From the IMG/VR virus record IMGVR_UViG_3300043427_002463, positions 1-36,377 of that record: a DNA stretch of 36,377 nt; one strand, given 5' to 3'. Each line of letters opens with the position of its first letter. Position 1 is the first letter of the stretch. Positions 19,380 through 36,126 of the stretch are shown one piece after another. The notes under the pieces are model-generated. The model was not told the origin of the DNA. It made no database searches and saw nothing but the letters and a program-made list of their open reading frames with translations. The DNA comes from a virus. A program made the position numbers and the translations under genes.

Positions 19380-19555
19380 TGCTGAAAGAGCTAATTGCTC
19401 TTATCTCGGGGATCTTGCAGTTTCTCCCAGAGGTCAGAAAGCTCATCTATCTACTTCAAAAGTCACCCGCAGAAAAAAAGACGGAAATAACAGAATCGGT
19501 AGGCGAAGAGGCAGATAAATTAAAGGAAACAGGGAGGCCGACGTGGGAAAAGTAG
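19379..19555 (+). CDS. Small lysis-region protein
   Basis: This 58-residue protein has a hydrophobic or amphipathic N-terminal half (MLKELIALISGILQFLPEV) and a charged C-terminal half rich in Glu and Lys. It begins at the overlap with the previous stop (TGATG) and its last 13 nt overlap the lipoprotein gene in another frame. The nested arrangement resembles Rz/Rz1 spanin pairs. However, the N-terminal segment is only weakly hydrophobic for a membrane span, so the function is open. Confidence 0.6.
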   Translation: MLKELIALISGILQFLPEVRKLIYLLQKSPAEKKTEITESVGEEADKLKETGRPTWEK

Positions 19556-19821
19556 GTCTTGGATTTACAGTTGGATTGATTCTCTCTGCCTGTGTCTCTG
19601 CTAACTTTCCTTTCAAATACTATACGTTAGAGGCCGCGTCTTACGACGGAAAGCTCCTCGGGCCACACTCGGACAAGGATCTACTCCTTGCTATGTGTAC
19701 CCCGACAGAGATGGACCGGGGGCCTTGCATAGTCCTATTTACTTCCGAGTTTCTCAGGCTGAAGGATGCTTACTTGAAGTGCCAGGTAGATTTAGATGCC
19801 GTATCAAGGGGGATTGAATGA
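19543..19821 (+). CDS. Lipoprotein, possible outer-membrane spanin
   Basis: This 92-residue protein starts at GTG with GGGAGG upstream, inside the end of the previous gene. Residues 1-17 are a lipoprotein signal ending in the lipobox LSAC, so Cys17 would be lipidated. The mature part (75 residues) has three further Cys residues and is mixed in character, not the Pro-rich stretch of classic Rz1. Its place between membrane genes and endolysin suggests an outer-membrane disruptor. It overlaps the endolysin start (ATGA). Confidence 0.65.
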   Translation: MGKVGLGFTVGLILSACVSANFPFKYYTLEAASYDGKLLGPHSDKDLLLAMCTPTEMDRGPCIVLFTSEFLRLKDAYLKCQVDLDAVSRGIE

Positions 19822-20201
19822 TTAGCATGAAAGAGCTTAACAAACATGGATACCCAACCAATCCTACGATCGAGGAAAATCTAAAGATCCTCCACCAAAG
19901 GATGAACGAGCTTAGACAAGCGTGGGCAAAGCCCATGATTATCACCTCGGGGCTTCGCTCGGATGAAAAGCAAGCTGCCCTAATTGCCCAGGGCAAGTCT
20001 AAGGCGGTGGGGTCTAAACACCTTGCAGGAGCAGCGTGTGATGTCTTGGATAAGGACGGAAGCCTTGGAGCATGGTGTCTTGAAAATCCTGACATTCTTA
20101 GGCGAATTGGGCTGTGGTGCGAACACCCTGAATACACCCCAGGATGGGTACATTTCCAGATTATGGCCCCAAAGTCAGGAAATAGGTTTTTCATTCCATA
20201 G
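19818..20201 (+). CDS. Endolysin, M15-type peptidase
   Basis: This 127-residue enzyme fits the VanY/M15 zinc carboxypeptidase group used by phages to cut peptidoglycan peptides. SGLRS (44-48) starts the core. SKHLAGAACDV (66-76) gives zinc ligands H68 and D75, and WVHFQ (110-114) gives H112. E102 or E105 is the likely general base. There is no signal peptide or membrane span, so release depends on a holin. The start overlaps the lipoprotein stop, with AGGGGG 5 nt upstream. Confidence 0.9.
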   Translation: MISMKELNKHGYPTNPTIEENLKILHQRMNELRQAWAKPMIITSGLRSDEKQAALIAQGKSKAVGSKHLAGAACDVLDKDGSLGAWCLENPDILRRIGLWCEHPEYTPGWVHFQIMAPKSGNRFFIP

Positions 20202-28767: not shown

Positions 28768-29065
28768 TTGCGATTTCCTCCAAATGCTTCATTACTTCTT
28801 CCAGGTTTTCTGGATACACCAATGTAGCATACCCCCCAGACTTGTTGATTCGCTCCACATTGTACTTCTGAAGTTCAGTAGCGGGAGCCTTGCTACTGCG
28901 CTTCAATTCTAGTGCCACAAATCTTCCATTAAGACAAAGGAGAAGGTCTGGGGTTCCCCGGATTGAGGCTTGCTGTATTGTGAAAGTAACTATCTTCGAA
29001 AGTTTTCGAAGCCGACTCAGAACTCTCTTTTTGAACGTGGATTCTTTGGGCAAGGTCGACTTCAT
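28751..29065 (-). CDS. VRR-NUC domain nuclease
   Basis: This 104-residue protein contains RGTPDLLL (36-43, D40) and ALELKRS (51-57, E53 and K55), followed by Q66. This is the PD-(D/E)xK core of the VRR-NUC (Holliday-junction-resolvase-like) family. In phages such nucleases are thought to resolve branched replication intermediates, as T7 gp3 does. The start ATG (TAGAAGACATAG upstream) lies inside the polymerase gene, giving a 137-nt overlap in a different frame. No later start is available that keeps the domain. Confidence 0.8.
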   Translation of the reverse strand: MKSTLPKESTFKKRVLSRLRKLSKIVTFTIQQASIRGTPDLLLCLNGRFVALELKRSSKAPATELQKYNVERINKSGGYATLVYPENLEEVMKHLEEIANETEA

Positions 29066-30884
29066 CTATGTCTTCTAGCTTACCCCAAGACTCACCGATA
29101 GCAACTGATGTACTCATCGCAAGACCGTTTTTAGGGGTATAGACCTTCTCCATAAGCTCCCGGATCTGGGGTATCAAGTGCAACTCAGATTCAGGCATTT
29201 CGAGAAGCACCTCGTCATGAATCGACAGTACCAGTTTTGACTGGTAAGGGGCCAGGAAGTCATGAATCGAGATCAACGCTCTTCGCATGATCTCTGACCC
29301 GGAGGATTGAATGATGTAGTTCGGTCCCTTGTAAGCGAAGTTCCCCCTACGCTTCTCCCCGTCCTTCTCGAACTCGATCTCTGGGAAGTGCAGAATACGC
29401 CCCGCAAAGTTGAAAATATACCCTCTGGAGTCGATCTTCTTCTTAATCCCTGAAATCAAGCCCTTCACCGCAGACAGCTTAGAGAAGTATAAGTCTTTAA
29501 GCACTTGCGCCCGATGCTCTGAAATCTTGAGCATAACCGCAATTTTTGGGGCGGCGGCTCCGTACAAAAGCGCAAAGTTCAGCACCTTAGCCGAGTACCG
29601 ATCTACCCCCATCATCTTGGCGGTAGCCGAGTGAACGTCTACTCCTTCGTTGATTTGTCGGATGAGTTCTCGTTCTCCGGCGTAATCAGCCGTAAGCCTG
29701 TATTCTTGCGCTTGGTAGTCGATTGAAACATAAACGAAACCCCGACGAGCCTTAAAACTATCTCGAACTCTAAATTCCCCTTCGTCTTCGCTGTTGAGAG
29801 TTTGAAGTGCAGGATCGGTGATAGAGAATCGGAAAGTGTCAGCGGCAGTCTGCCGGATATTAGGTCTGACAACTCCTTCTTTATCTCCGTAATAGGTAAA
29901 ACTATTGTAGTAGGTGTTGAGTCTTTTGTAGGCATCTCGATATTCTCCAATTACTTGCGCGGCGGGGTGGGTGATTGATTGAAGAACTGCATCCGTAAAA
30001 CTTGCATTTCCCTTTGATGTAACCCCTCCCATAATTCCATTTGACCGGAAGACTTCTGCGAGATGCTTATTGCTGTCAATAAGCTCTCTGCCAGTAAGTT
30101 CGAAGAACTTCTTCTTCGCGTCCGAGATCCTTTGCTCTTCCCTTTGCTTCGCTTTTTCAATGTGTTCATAGTCTAGTTGCATCCCCCTTTTTTCAATGTC
30201 GAACAACACTTTAGTCAGTTTGCACTCGTCTTCAATCAAATTCGAGAACGGGCCTGGATACCCTACGATCTTCGAATACTTCTCAGTAAGTTCTTGTACC
30301 TTTGCCTGTTGAAGCTCCCCGATCTGGTAGGTCAACCGGGCATCCTGCATGGCATACTTAGAGATGATCGAGAAAGGTACTCGGTCGAATCGGGGGTTTT
30401 TCTTGATGCTTTTTTTGCCCTCGATAGTCTCCCGCTCAAACAAGTCGTTTTCCTTGATGTAGTCCATCAAGTCCCCGTCCTTGCCCTCAAGCCCCATGCG
30501 CTTTGCGACGCTATCCAAGCTGTAAGATAAGTGACGGTTATAGATGCACTTATCCACTACCAGAACATCCCAAGGGGTGAAGTCTTCCCCCCAGGTATCA
30601 TCTGAGAGAAAGTGCATATCGAACTTTGCGTTAGCGAAGTAAATGAGCTTTCCTTTCACGGCCTCGTAGATCGTACTTTTGCGGTGAAAGTCCAAGACCG
30701 GGGAGCCATCAGAGTACAGATTGAAGTTGAAGTAATACTCTTCTTTATCTGTACCTATGATGATGGCGAACGCTCGGTCCCCGTGATACCGCCTAAGTCC
30801 GGTCGTCTCGGTATCTAGGCTGATTCGGGGGGCTTGTTTAATTTCTTCAATAGTCCTGTTGAAATTGTCAGTAGTAACGATCAT
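28929..30884 (-). CDS. DNA polymerase, family A, with 3'-5' exonuclease
   Basis: This 651-residue replicative polymerase has an N-terminal proofreading domain with DTETTG (24-29), ANAKFD (84-89) and YAMQDARLT (177-185). The polymerase motifs are A, SIDYQAQEYR (387-396, D389 and E394); B, RYSAKVLNFALLYG (429-442); and C, SIHDEVL (554-560). Motif A differs from the common DYSQIELR. F437 sits at the nucleotide-selection position, as in E. coli Pol I rather than T7. The last 45 residues after GESWGKLED overlap the nuclease gene and look non-conserved. The start overlaps the exonuclease stop (ATGA). Confidence 0.95.
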   Translation of the reverse strand: MIVTTDNFNRTIEEIKQAPRISLDTETTGLRRYHGDRAFAIIIGTDKEEYYFNFNLYSDGSPVLDFHRKSTIYEAVKGKLIYFANAKFDMHFLSDDTWGEDFTPWDVLVVDKCIYNRHLSYSLDSVAKRMGLEGKDGDLMDYIKENDLFERETIEGKKSIKKNPRFDRVPFSIISKYAMQDARLTYQIGELQQAKVQELTEKYSKIVGYPGPFSNLIEDECKLTKVLFDIEKRGMQLDYEHIEKAKQREEQRISDAKKKFFELTGRELIDSNKHLAEVFRSNGIMGGVTSKGNASFTDAVLQSITHPAAQVIGEYRDAYKRLNTYYNSFTYYGDKEGVVRPNIRQTAADTFRFSITDPALQTLNSEDEGEFRVRDSFKARRGFVYVSIDYQAQEYRLTADYAGERELIRQINEGVDVHSATAKMMGVDRYSAKVLNFALLYGAAAPKIAVMLKISEHRAQVLKDLYFSKLSAVKGLISGIKKKIDSRGYIFNFAGRILHFPEIEFEKDGEKRRGNFAYKGPNYIIQSSGSEIMRRALISIHDFLAPYQSKLVLSIHDEVLLEMPESELHLIPQIRELMEKVYTPKNGLAMSTSVAIGESWGKLEDIDEVDLAQRIHVQKESSESASKTFEDSYFHNTASLNPGNPRPSPLS

Positions 30885-33002: not shown

Positions 33003-34415
33003 TCAGATCATCTTTGCAAGATGCAAAATGTCCGTCGATAAATCTTTCTTGTCCTGAAGAGCCTTCAGAACCGCAGTATCAATCGTGCCTTCAGCTACAA
33101 GATCAATCCGAGTAATGCTCGTGTGCTTTTCCGATCCACCGCGGTACGCCCTCGCCTCACTCTGAAGATCATGCTCTAGGCTATATCCACGGCTAAAGTA
33201 AACCATGTAGTTCGCTTCGGTCAGGTTTACCCCAGTACCCCCCGCAGCCTGGGATGCAATCATCACCCGGCAAGTAGGCTCTTGCTGAAAGCGGTCGATC
33301 TCCGCTTGCTTATCAGAGATGAGTCCTGTCAGTTCTGCAAACTCAATCTTCAAATCCTTACACGCGTTCCTGACAATCTCGTGATCCTCATGAAAGATGG
33401 ACCACACGATTACTTTGTGGTTAGGGGCTAGGTCTTCAAGAAGATCCTTCAGTGCTTTGGCTCGGGGGTTTACCTCGAAGCGGTGGATCTCACCGTTGTC
33501 TAGCTTCAGGAATCCCGACAGGATTTGTTGCATCCGGAGAGCCTTGGTGATCGCAAGCTGTGCAATCGAAACCCCGTTCTCGCACACAGCAAGAAACTCT
33601 TTTTTCATATCGACATACGCGCGCTTCTGCTCCGCAGAGAGGTCCACGGGAACGGTAACGCGCACGAGCGGCGGCAAATCGAGACACTCATCCTTCGAGG
33701 CATGGATGCTGATTTCGCTGATTTTGGTCTTTAGGATGTCCCGACTAGAAGGCTTCACTACCCACTTCGGAAAGTGCGCGTGTTTTGGCATATAGCGGTT
33801 CTTGTCTTCGAAGTATTGCGCTCTGAACTGGAAGAAGTTCTTTCCGAGACGCTTGCCCCCATCAAGAATTCGGTACTGTGCAAACAGATCCATCTCGTTG
33901 TTTAGCACCGGAGTCCCGGTCAGAATCATCCGATAGTGGACGGGCAAGTTGTTCATGGCATCGCTAATCGCGGTCAGTGCCTTGGTCCTCTGGGCCGTAA
34001 CGCCTTTGACCCGGTGGGCTTCATCAAGGATCAGGAATTCAGGCGGGGCATAGGTGAAGATTTCCTTCATCTTTGCGTTCGCAAATCCTTCGTAGTTTGT
34101 GATGAAGATGCTATCTTTCGGAAGAACCTTAATCATCTTCACTCGCTCAACCACAGATCCGTCCAGGACAAATACCTTATCAAGCGGGATCTTTGTGTAC
34201 TTGGCAATCTCCGCTCTCCAGTTGTAGAGAACGGCTGCGGGACCGATGATGAGGGTACGCAGGATCTTCTTGTTCTCGTTCATCCTGGCCCGGAGGATTT
34301 CAAGGGCGGTTCGAGTCTTCCCGGTTCCCATCTCAAAAAGAAGGGCGCAGTCAGGGGTGTTTTTACCTAGCTCGATTCCCTCAAGCTGATGTTTCCAAAG
34401 CGGTGGTAGTTCCAT
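33003..34415 (-). CDS. SNF2-type superfamily 2 helicase
   Basis: This 470-residue ATPase has all main SF2 motifs: I, EMGTGKT (28-34); II, DEAH (131-134); III, LTGTP (165-169); V, GGTGVNL (392-398); and VI, QSEARAYRGG (418-427) with the Arg finger. The Lys/Arg-rich part between the domains is short compared with chromatin remodellers. Phage SNF2-like proteins are proposed to assist replication or recombination and to displace bound proteins. No DnaB-type helicase is seen here. AGAGGA precedes the ATG. An inverted repeat of 8-bp arms lies just upstream. Confidence 0.9.
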   Translation of the reverse strand: MELPPLWKHQLEGIELGKNTPDCALLFEMGTGKTRTALEILRARMNENKKILRTLIIGPAAVLYNWRAEIAKYTKIPLDKVFVLDGSVVERVKMIKVLPKDSIFITNYEGFANAKMKEIFTYAPPEFLILDEAHRVKGVTAQRTKALTAISDAMNNLPVHYRMILTGTPVLNNEMDLFAQYRILDGGKRLGKNFFQFRAQYFEDKNRYMPKHAHFPKWVVKPSSRDILKTKISEISIHASKDECLDLPPLVRVTVPVDLSAEQKRAYVDMKKEFLAVCENGVSIAQLAITKALRMQQILSGFLKLDNGEIHRFEVNPRAKALKDLLEDLAPNHKVIVWSIFHEDHEIVRNACKDLKIEFAELTGLISDKQAEIDRFQQEPTCRVMIASQAAGGTGVNLTEANYMVYFSRGYSLEHDLQSEARAYRGGSEKHTSITRIDLVAEGTIDTAVLKALQDKKDLSTDILHLAKMI

Positions 34416-34541: not shown

Positions 34542-34721
34542 TTACTTCTTGAATTTCGCCTTAGCGATCTTTTTCAAATCCTCTAGTGTTTTGGGCTTCT
34601 TTCGCTCCGGGATGTTCTTCGGAGTCTCGGAGTTCCACTCGTCAAAAGTCTTCTGGGAGATTTCCCCCTTCTTGACCATAGCGGCGAACTTGCGTCTTTG
34701 TGCATCACTTTTGAATGGCAT
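34542..34721 (-). CDS. Small basic protein with MPFKS...QRRKF start
   Basis: This 59-residue protein begins MPFKSDAQRRKFAAMVKKGE, resembling small phage and bacterial proteins of unknown function with the same N-terminal signature. It then has FDEWNSETPKNIPERKKP and a Lys-rich helical end. GGGGGGATT precedes the ATG. Strong positive charge and small size suggest a nucleic acid-binding helper. It is directly upstream of the lysine-rich peptide. Confidence 0.75.
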   Translation of the reverse strand: MPFKSDAQRRKFAAMVKKGEISQKTFDEWNSETPKNIPERKKPKTLEDLKKIAKAKFKK

Positions 34722-34748: not shown

Positions 34749-35189
34749 CTACAAACAAAATAGCTCCCCGGCTAATTTGACGTACTTACCAACTTTAGTT
34801 GGTAACGACTTCGCTTTCTGTTCGCATGGGAATCCCATCATTTTCATCATCTCAGAAGCAAAGTAAGAAGCCTTTTCTGGGGTACTCATTTTGTCGTACC
34901 GATGCTTGTACGTGACCAGAATTTTGTTGTCAATATCAGTGATGCCTACTGCACTACCAAGTCTTTTTAAGAGAGGTCTTTCAACCACTTCCCAGGAAAA
35001 TCTATGCTCTTTGTTTAGAAAAAACTTCTGATAAAGTTGTTGTTGGGTACTGCCCTCAAACCGCCCGAGATCGGTAAAGTTTGATTTCAAAAACCAACCC
35101 ATGAAGTCGTTAGAGTTCATCACGGACTCTGCAAGACTGACCGCCTTAAACTGGTCTTGGTCTAACTTTGAATTAGAAAGAAATTTCAT
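34749..35189 (-). CDS. Hypothetical early protein
   Basis: This 146-residue soluble protein is mainly helical, with aromatic clusters (FMGWFLKSNFTDLGRFEG and NKEHRFSWEVVERP). The start has AGAAAGAT, a weak ribosome site. It lies 25 nt downstream of the metalloprotease candidate and 27 nt before the small basic gene. No motif is recognised. Confidence 0.75.
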   Translation of the reverse strand: MKFLSNSKLDQDQFKAVSLAESVMNSNDFMGWFLKSNFTDLGRFEGSTQQQLYQKFFLNKEHRFSWEVVERPLLKRLGSAVGITDIDNKILVTYKHRYDKMSTPEKASYFASEMMKMMGFPCEQKAKSLPTKVGKYVKLAGELFCL

Positions 35190-35214: not shown

Positions 35215-35799
35215 TCAGATGCAACACCCGCCGTTACGATAGTCCTCATCAAGCGAGTCGAAGGCATGGTTAATCTGGTACGGGGGACTGTAATAGTTGT
35301 GGTCGTTGTTGTCGTTACCCCGGTGCATGAGTCCCTTAGCGTGTGCAATCTCGTGCGCCATGATCGAGGCTTCAGAACAGAAGCTCTGGTTGTAAGCCGC
35401 GAGCGCATTTCGGTTGATATGCACCACTGGCTGCCCCGCTACCTCGTACCCTTGCAGTCCGTAGATGAAGTGGTAAAAGTAGGACACCATAATGACCTGC
35501 TCGGTCCGCATCTTGAGAAGTACGTCGATCGGATCGTCGCCCCTAAGTTCGGTCCACTTCCGGCCTTTTGCCAGTAGGAACTTTGCAAAGCAGTCGGAGT
35601 TGAGAGTAGCGTTTAGCTTTCTCTCAAGCTCCGGTAGCTTCATCCGCTCCGAGTCGTTGCAAGTCTCGTTGCAGACAAGAGTAATCGTGCGCTTTGGTTC
35701 GGGGGGTTTGGGCGGCGAGGGCGGTCCGTAGACGCGCTCAACCGGACTATGTTTTATGACGCAACCCATTAAAAACAATGCCAGGAGAAAACCCCTCAT
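35215..35799 (-). CDS. Lipoprotein zinc metalloprotease candidate
   Basis: This 194-residue protein has a lipoprotein signal with lipobox LMGC (lipidated Cys13) and a Pro-rich segment (YGPPSPPKPPEP, 24-35) that could span the periplasm. The motif HEIAHAKGLMH (149-159) fits HExxHxxGxxH of metzincin-type zinc proteases: H149, H153 and H159 as ligands, E150 as the base. A Met-turn is not evident. Several Cys residues (43, 47, 70, 141, 191, 192) could form disulphides outside the cytoplasm. Its role may be envelope protein cleavage or resistance to superinfection. The start codon lies in an inverted repeat with a weak ribosome site. Confidence 0.75.
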   Translation of the reverse strand: MRGFLLALFLMGCVIKHSPVERVYGPPSPPKPPEPKRTITLVCNETCNDSERMKLPELERKLNATLNSDCFAKFLLAKGRKWTELRGDDPIDVLLKMRTEQVIMVSYFYHFIYGLQGYEVAGQPVVHINRNALAAYNQSFCSEASIMAHEIAHAKGLMHRGNDNNDHNYYSPPYQINHAFDSLDEDYRNGGCCI

Positions 35800-35826
35800 G
35801 TATTAAGCATGAGGTAAATTTTACCT
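35795..35826. promoter_or_regulatory. Two inverted repeats at the metalloprotease start
   Basis: CTCATG/CATGAG (35795-35813) has a 7-nt loop and its left arm contains the start codon of the protease gene. Immediately upstream, AGGTAAATTTTACCT (35812-35826) is a perfect 7-bp-arm palindrome around one base. The first could hide the start codon in mRNA; the second looks like a repressor site. Both are inferred from the sequence alone. Confidence 0.5.
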
Positions 35827-35834
35827 ACCTGCAA

Positions 35835-35960
35835 TTATTTTCCTCGCATGACAAAACGAAGGGCATCAAAAATCGCCATTCCCAGTAGTGCCCCAAAAGC
35901 AAGGGCGGTTCCGAGGCAAAAGAAAACTCCTAACAAAAAGCTAAAGTCTTTGAATTCCAT
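35835..35960 (-). CDS. 41-residue membrane protein
   Basis: The start at 35960 is chosen for its GGAAGGAAAA ribosome site; a longer frame to 36092 runs across the next gene. The product begins MEFKDFSF, has one span (about residues 7-30, FLLGVFFCLGTALAFGALLG) and ends with Arg/Lys (RFVMRGK), predicting an inside C-terminus. No family is recognised. The AP2-like gene overlaps its start region by 20 nt. Confidence 0.65.
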   Translation of the reverse strand: MEFKDFSFLLGVFFCLGTALAFGALLGMAIFDALRFVMRGK

Positions 35961-36126
35961 GTTTTTCCTTCCATTTCTTATAGGCTTCAACGGCCTCTTC
36001 TCGGGTCTTGAAACAGCCAATATACCGACGCTCTTTGTTGAGCGTGGTCCTGACAATGTAACGATAAAGTTGCCCCTTTCGGTACACCTCAAAAATGCAC
36101 TCTTCCTTGTAGGGCTTCCTATTCAT
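35941..36126 (-). CDS. Small AP2-like DNA-binding protein
   Basis: ATG at 36126 (61 residues) has AAGGGTGA about 6 nt upstream; an alternative GTG lies at 36135. The end part (RYIGCFKTREEAVEAYKKW) matches the AP2/ERF-type pattern: the Gly-x-Phe strand, T.EEA and then AY on the helix. This domain is found in many phage proteins and in HNH endonucleases. The N-terminal strands (FEVYRKGQLYRYIVR) complete a three-strand sheet. No nuclease motif is present, so a stand-alone DNA-binding regulator is likely. Confidence 0.75.
   Translation of the reverse strand: MNRKPYKEECIFEVYRKGQLYRYIVRTTLNKERRYIGCFKTREEAVEAYKKWKEKHGIQRL

Follow-up and report, generated by a model that had tools for sequence, protein, structure and literature searches.

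Phage lipoproteins known to protect infected cells plug receptors. The small outer-membrane exclusion lipoproteins Llp of phage T5 and Cor of phage T1 (PMC9586334) are non-enzymatic proteins that jam the receptor. In Listeria monocytogenes, a phage-derived secreted metzincin, Mtz, cleaves a lipoprotein of the envelope and changes lysis; it carries a Sec/SPI signal, a Met-turn (AIMLD) and a TIMP-like lipoprotein partner, Tim (PMC8235301).

We analyzed a 36,377-nucleotide stretch of DNA, called the window throughout, from an IMG/VR virus contig (IMGVR_UViG_3300043427_002463). A minus-strand gene in the window encodes a predicted lipoprotein that resembles the Mtz/Tim system in its phage origin, in the type of protease, an exported HExxHxxGxxH enzyme at the cell envelope, and in its adjoining regulators. 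Unlike Mtz, the window protease is itself a lipoprotein, has no Met-turn, and has no TIMP-like neighbor that we could see. Like Llp and Cor, it is a phage lipoprotein whose expected place is the outer membrane of the infected cell, predicted in the case of the window protein, but it differs from them in having a conserved zinc-protease domain. We propose a zinc endopeptidase that is anchored in the envelope and modifies the host surface, perhaps in superinfection exclusion, and assign this reading a probability of about 0.45. Export and the zinc site are well supported by the sequence, while the target and the phenotype are what we infer.

The lipoprotein and its family

The gene and the parts of its product are as follows.

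35799-35215, minus strand: putative exported zincin lipoprotein gene, 194 aa, ATG start
35761..35799, minus strand: signal peptide and lipobox, MRGFLLALFLMGC, assigned by pattern test; relatives share the layout
35323..35355, minus strand: zinc-binding and catalytic motif HEIAHAKGLMH (H149, E150, H153, H159), ligands invariant in 7/7
Protein residues: signal peptide 1-12, lipobox Cys13, Pro-rich linker ~24-37, catalytic domain ~39-194

The initial annotation had described a lipoprotein with a HExxHxxGxxH match and a Pro-rich linker, and both are present in the 194-residue minus-strand ORF. Its numbering of H149 and E150 is correct, as HEIAHAKGLMH spans residues 149-159; the catalytic domain also contains SPPYQINHA. 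The sequence GFLLALFLMGC fits a PROSITE-PS51257-like lipobox pattern with the cysteine at position 13. The PROSITE rule sets a range of 15-35 for this cysteine, of which Cys13 falls short, and short signal peptides also occur in relatives, with the cysteine at 14 in L051 and at 12 in L071. After FLMGC the protein continues with VIKHSPVERVYGPPSPPKPPEPKR, the Pro-rich stretch GPPSPPKPPEPK and a cysteine-containing domain.

Single-sequence searches with the window protein found nothing in INPHARED phages (best E 0.1) or in viral contigs. Using alignments as queries, we retrieved six relatives from viral contigs (L051, L052, L053, L067/L068, L069/L070 and L071), so that the exported family, window included, has seven distinct members, all from IMG/VR contigs whose tailed phages are unlike one another. 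No member departs from H149, E150, H153 and H159, and since six further distinct phage sequences share these four zinc-site residues, the window protein is far beyond chance. The motif glycine is kept in six, the exception being L053 (HEMSHTKQFWH). C70 and C141 are invariant, and a C-terminal CC is found in 6/7 (L071 is shorter). L069 and L071 lack both C43 and C47 (CxxxC), the pattern predicted for two cysteines that bond to each other. Such recurring cysteines are as expected for disulphides outside the cytoplasm. The lipobox pattern is matched in four proteins (window, L051, L052 and L069), a lipobox-like cysteine follows the hydrophobic stretch in L067 (TPSC) and L071, and L053 has a signal peptide with no lipobox; membrane anchoring is thus not essential to the family.

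L052 and L069 had no match in phages, and L051 and L069 none in plasmids. Two family-alignment scans of genome contigs through short peptide patterns recovered no cellular homologue, a result that does not imply absence from bacteria. The window protein had no match in PADLOC, nothing significant by PDB sequence search, and only weak, non-significant matches in NCBIfam and PHROGs. Pfam gave sub-threshold zincin matches around the motif (E 0.02-0.07), the best being Astacin (E 0.018, 15.2 bits against a cut-off of 22.5 bits). On these alignments, the window protein is assigned to a small unnamed family of phage enzymes of a known type.

Predicted structure and classification

An AlphaFold2 model of the exported protein, built on a 10-sequence alignment, has a mean pLDDT of 88.6, with values of 95-98 over most of the catalytic domain and about 96 in the motif region, where residues 140-154 form the motif helix. 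By Foldseek, zinc peptidases are the best solved matches, with the Grifola M35 peptidase at E 0.01 and probability 0.99. VIA-align ranked AsaP1 (Z 10.9), the Grifola peptidase (10.4) and deuterolysin (10.1) highest, over 133-138 residues and, for the M35 fold matches, at 11-14% identity; YbeY (8.3) and Wss1 (7.2) ranked lower. The modeled fold is that of a zincin. Together with the invariant zinc-site residues (7/7), the lipobox or lipobox-like signals (6/7) and the conserved cysteines, this confident zincin-like model upholds the initial description of an exported zinc-protease lipoprotein. The zinc-site residues lie in a confidently modeled region and the sequence predicts export; on these two points, on which that description had been staked, it was not refuted.

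Assignment to a class is less direct. The M35 peptidases (deuterolysin, Grifola peptidyl-Lys peptidase and AsaP1) have the same HExxH, are disulphide-bearing secreted proteins and provide the nearest solved folds. The third zinc ligand of M35 peptidases is Asp. This ligand is absent here: no GTxxD follows HExxH, and the window family has instead the invariant His159, six residues after the second His, a third ligand of metzincin type. The metzincins (astacin, matrixin and reprolysin; M12/M10) share HExxHxxGxxH, but the window family lacks the Met-turn, its glycine is not invariant, and no match is significant. The window protein and 5/6 relatives have no Met beyond H159; in L052 a Met directly follows the third His, outside the turn position. 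Downstream of the zinc motif there is an S/T-x-P-Y motif instead. Sequence membership of the named metzincin families M10 and M12 is not supported, the best Pfam match being below its cut-off. The earlier term "metzincin-like" holds for the zinc consensus, and a metzincin in the strict sense is not supported, given the missing Met-turn and the M35 nearest folds. With a His third ligand and no Met-turn, we describe the protein as a zincin with a metzincin-like zinc consensus.

A decayed, non-exported paralogue in the adjoining gene

The next gene downstream of the lipoprotein gene is an intact ORF, without a signal peptide, for a second zincin-like protein. This neighbor and the spread of the family had escaped the initial annotation.

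34749-35189, minus strand: putative non-exported distant paralogue, 146 aa, decayed zinc site (SEMMKMMGFPC replaces HELMHxxGFxH)
34542..34721, minus strand: small ORF, MPFKSDAQRRKF..., conserved beside the non-exported paralogue in relatives
L044 8377-8835, plus strand: non-exported zincin-like protein, site RQMMHIVGFDE, ORF intact

Phage relatives of the window, located through terminase, polymerase and helicase, encode a ~150-residue protein without a signal peptide at the same locus upstream of the helicase. The zinc site is intact in four of them (HELMHMMGFEH, HEMMHVMGFVH or HELMHIIGFSH, then S/T-L/V-PYQV) and decayed in L044. The window gene at 34749-35189 is the orthologue of this protein. 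On sequence, the site has been lost in two different ways, in the window and in L044, so that a phage pseudoenzyme exists alongside relatives that keep their site. Since no exported copy was found with the decayed copy in the partial L044 contig, gaining the lipoprotein does not by itself account for site loss. The family would then offer a natural case of divergent fates, with catalysis retained in the exported branch and lost on at least two occasions in the non-exported one.

The model of the paralogue (pLDDT 93.1) has the same order of secondary structure as the exported protein, and its nearest solved folds are again AsaP1 (9.2), Grifola (8.7) and deuterolysin (8.6). Alignment of the exported and non-exported families by hhalign gave E 6e-12 and 97.5% probability over 129 columns. 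The profile score was 73 versus 27.4 +/- 2.2 (maximum 36) for column shuffles that kept the motif; masking the motif left a score of 45, and the N-terminal part by itself scored 33.6 versus 11.8 +/- 2.2 for shuffles. The score of the single window sequence against the neighbor family was equaled in 4/200 motif-kept shuffles, and homology is clear only from the four- and seven-member profiles. These profile comparisons indicate that the two families are homologous beyond the HExxH motif. The cysteines of the exported clade are not conserved in the non-exported clade. In Pfam the non-exported family weakly matches PhageMetallopep (PF18894, E 2e-4) and YbeY (0.04), neither of which is matched by the exported members scanned; YbeY, an endoribonuclease, lacks the general-base Glu.

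In the tree, exported and non-exported clades split at 98/97 and the window lipoprotein pairs with that of L051 (95/98), to which it is 47% identical, compared with about 18% for its neighbor. A recent tandem duplication was rejected on this split and these identities. Since the tree separates the clades, the adjacent genes are old paralogues that have come together rather than a fresh duplication. In L051 a small AP2-like gene lies immediately before the exported zincin; in L035, L037, L043 and L044 it lies immediately before the non-exported one, as though either form could stand in for the other. The lipoprotein anchor, the metzincin-type ligands without a Met-turn and the adjoining decayed non-exported paralogue are an unusual combination. 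A second small HExxH family (FIHEVLHAVCEE, FVHEILHVF) was observed in the same gene blocks (L043 732-1133, L045 7068-7358 and L067 5361-5756).

The start region

35794-35814: inverted repeat containing the start codon, CCTCATG-N7-CATGAGG (7-bp arms, 7-nt loop), not above chance
35812-35826: 15-bp palindrome AGGTAAAATTTACCT, not above chance, none seen upstream of the L051 gene

Both repeats, which had been taken as signs of a controlled start, are real as sequence; a frequency beyond chance is not supported. Palindromes with an arm of at least 7 number five in the window versus 3.9 +/- 1.8 in Markov shuffles, and 3/40 gene starts in the window lie inside such inverted repeats, where coverage predicts about one. 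The L051 lipoprotein gene starts behind a normal AAGGGGGAAG ribosome-binding site, with no repeat of this kind. A regulated start was rejected on these grounds. In the window lipoprotein gene the start has no clear Shine-Dalgarno sequence and the RNA folding of the start region is modestly stable (z -2.65), so that weak or conditional translation is possible but unsupported. A sigma-70 promoter scan found none.

Genomic context

Structural genes of the window are on the plus strand and replication genes on the minus strand, the latter in a block that includes the following.

28929-30884, minus strand: DNA polymerase A
33003-34415, minus strand: SNF2 helicase
35835..35960, minus strand: small hydrophobic ORF, 41 aa, with similar ORFs in the same block of relatives
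35941..36126, minus strand: small AP2-like ORF (YIGCFKTREEA; likeness by eye), homologues in L051, L035, L037, L043 and L044

No close cultured relative of the window phage was found. The exported zincin gene is in the replication block in the window, adjoins terminase in L052, and lies between terminase and the presumed portal in L069/L070. L053 is a contractile-tailed phage (sheath-like protein) in which the gene comes before the tail sheath, and the L051 phage has a DnaB-like helicase. Such varied placement in dissimilar phages is as expected for a mobile accessory gene. Similar small HTH-like proteins are encoded directly beside the zincin gene in L045 (8441-8668) and L052 (5492-5749) (IEKRTGIHRQIIARF / IESRTGVHRQIVARL), upstream of it in one phage and downstream in the other.

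Proposed function and alternative explanations

The window protein is very probably an exported zincin. Sequence and model suggest Sec export and lipidation at Cys13, with a flexible Pro-rich tether holding a disulphide-bearing zincin domain in which H149, H153 and H159 would bind Zn and E150 would be the general base. In a Gram-negative host, Val at +2 would direct the protein to the outer membrane under the Lol +2 rule. The invariance of E150 makes catalysis likely, and we consider that the chances of an active protease are good; that it would act on an envelope target, as its location suggests, is only a little less probable. The protease would be made early, given the position of its gene in the replication block with SNF2 helicase and DNA polymerase A, and may cleave a protein in the envelope or on the surface of the infected host. 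The most plausible consequence would be that other phages, or its own progeny, could no longer bind productively. Exclusion as the purpose is a guess from the precedents of T5 Llp, T1 Cor and the Listeria phage-derived metzincin, and we give it, against another envelope role, less than even odds. Llp, which blocks sterically or allosterically and not by proteolysis, counts against proteolytic exclusion. If true, proteolytic rather than steric exclusion would be a new mechanism, and exported phage proteases that keep their active site across unrelated phages would give phages a separate way to remodel the host surface. The broader proposal, that unnamed lipoprotein proteases exclude competing phages by cutting surface receptors and share a common stock with a cytoplasmic phage zincin repeatedly turned pseudoenzyme, is doubtful.

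Placement of the gene among late structural genes in L053 and L069/L070 fits late expression better than early; it counts against exclusion and favors a late or lysis role in those phages, which we keep as the main rival. The protein would then help release through late cutting of envelope proteins, for example outer-membrane tethers, alongside a separate M15-type endolysin. Pro-rich lipoproteins are typical of o-spanins, a point for this role. The Listeria phage-derived Mtz/Tim pair sensitizes cells to lysins (PMC8235301), which also favors it. In the window, however, the gene belongs to the replication block and the M15 endolysin (19818-20201), which another small lipoprotein-like ORF adjoins, is about 15 kb away; a lysis helper is unlikely here.

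Alternatively, an exported zinc-binding or adhesin-like zincin fold could block a receptor by binding, as Llp does, with no physiological proteolysis. Known lipoprotein exclusion works by binding (PMC9586334), and the sister clade keeps its fold after loss of the zinc site, so the fold can be useful without catalysis. All four catalytic and zinc residues, E150 included, are however invariant in the seven divergent exported members, more than selection for binding alone would require, and this explanation is improbable. E150 alone provides one clean mutation that would separate catalysis from binding. Least likely is a released protein that acts on neighboring cells or extracellular material (biofilm matrix, competitor cells or vesicles) instead of the infected cell, for although L053 has a signal peptide without a lipobox and the fold neighbors AsaP1 and the Grifola peptidase are secreted extracellular enzymes, most family members carry a lipobox-like Cys.

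Other features of the window

Just before the M15-type endolysin gene, a small plus-strand ORF (19543-19821) has a lipobox-like start, GLILSAC, and may encode an outer spanin; a similar lipobox-like signal, GVTISAC, is found in L037. At the very end of the contig, positions 1-127 hold 9.1 copies of a perfect 14-bp tandem repeat, CCCAGGACCAAAGG, either a repeat end or an assembly artefact. Two adjoining minus-strand genes follow, one for a class-II glutamine amidotransferase look-alike by eye (134-1081, starting MCKHILIN) and one for a Pfam Amidoligase_2 protein (1101-2057), possibly a phage peptide- or cell-wall-modifying pair.
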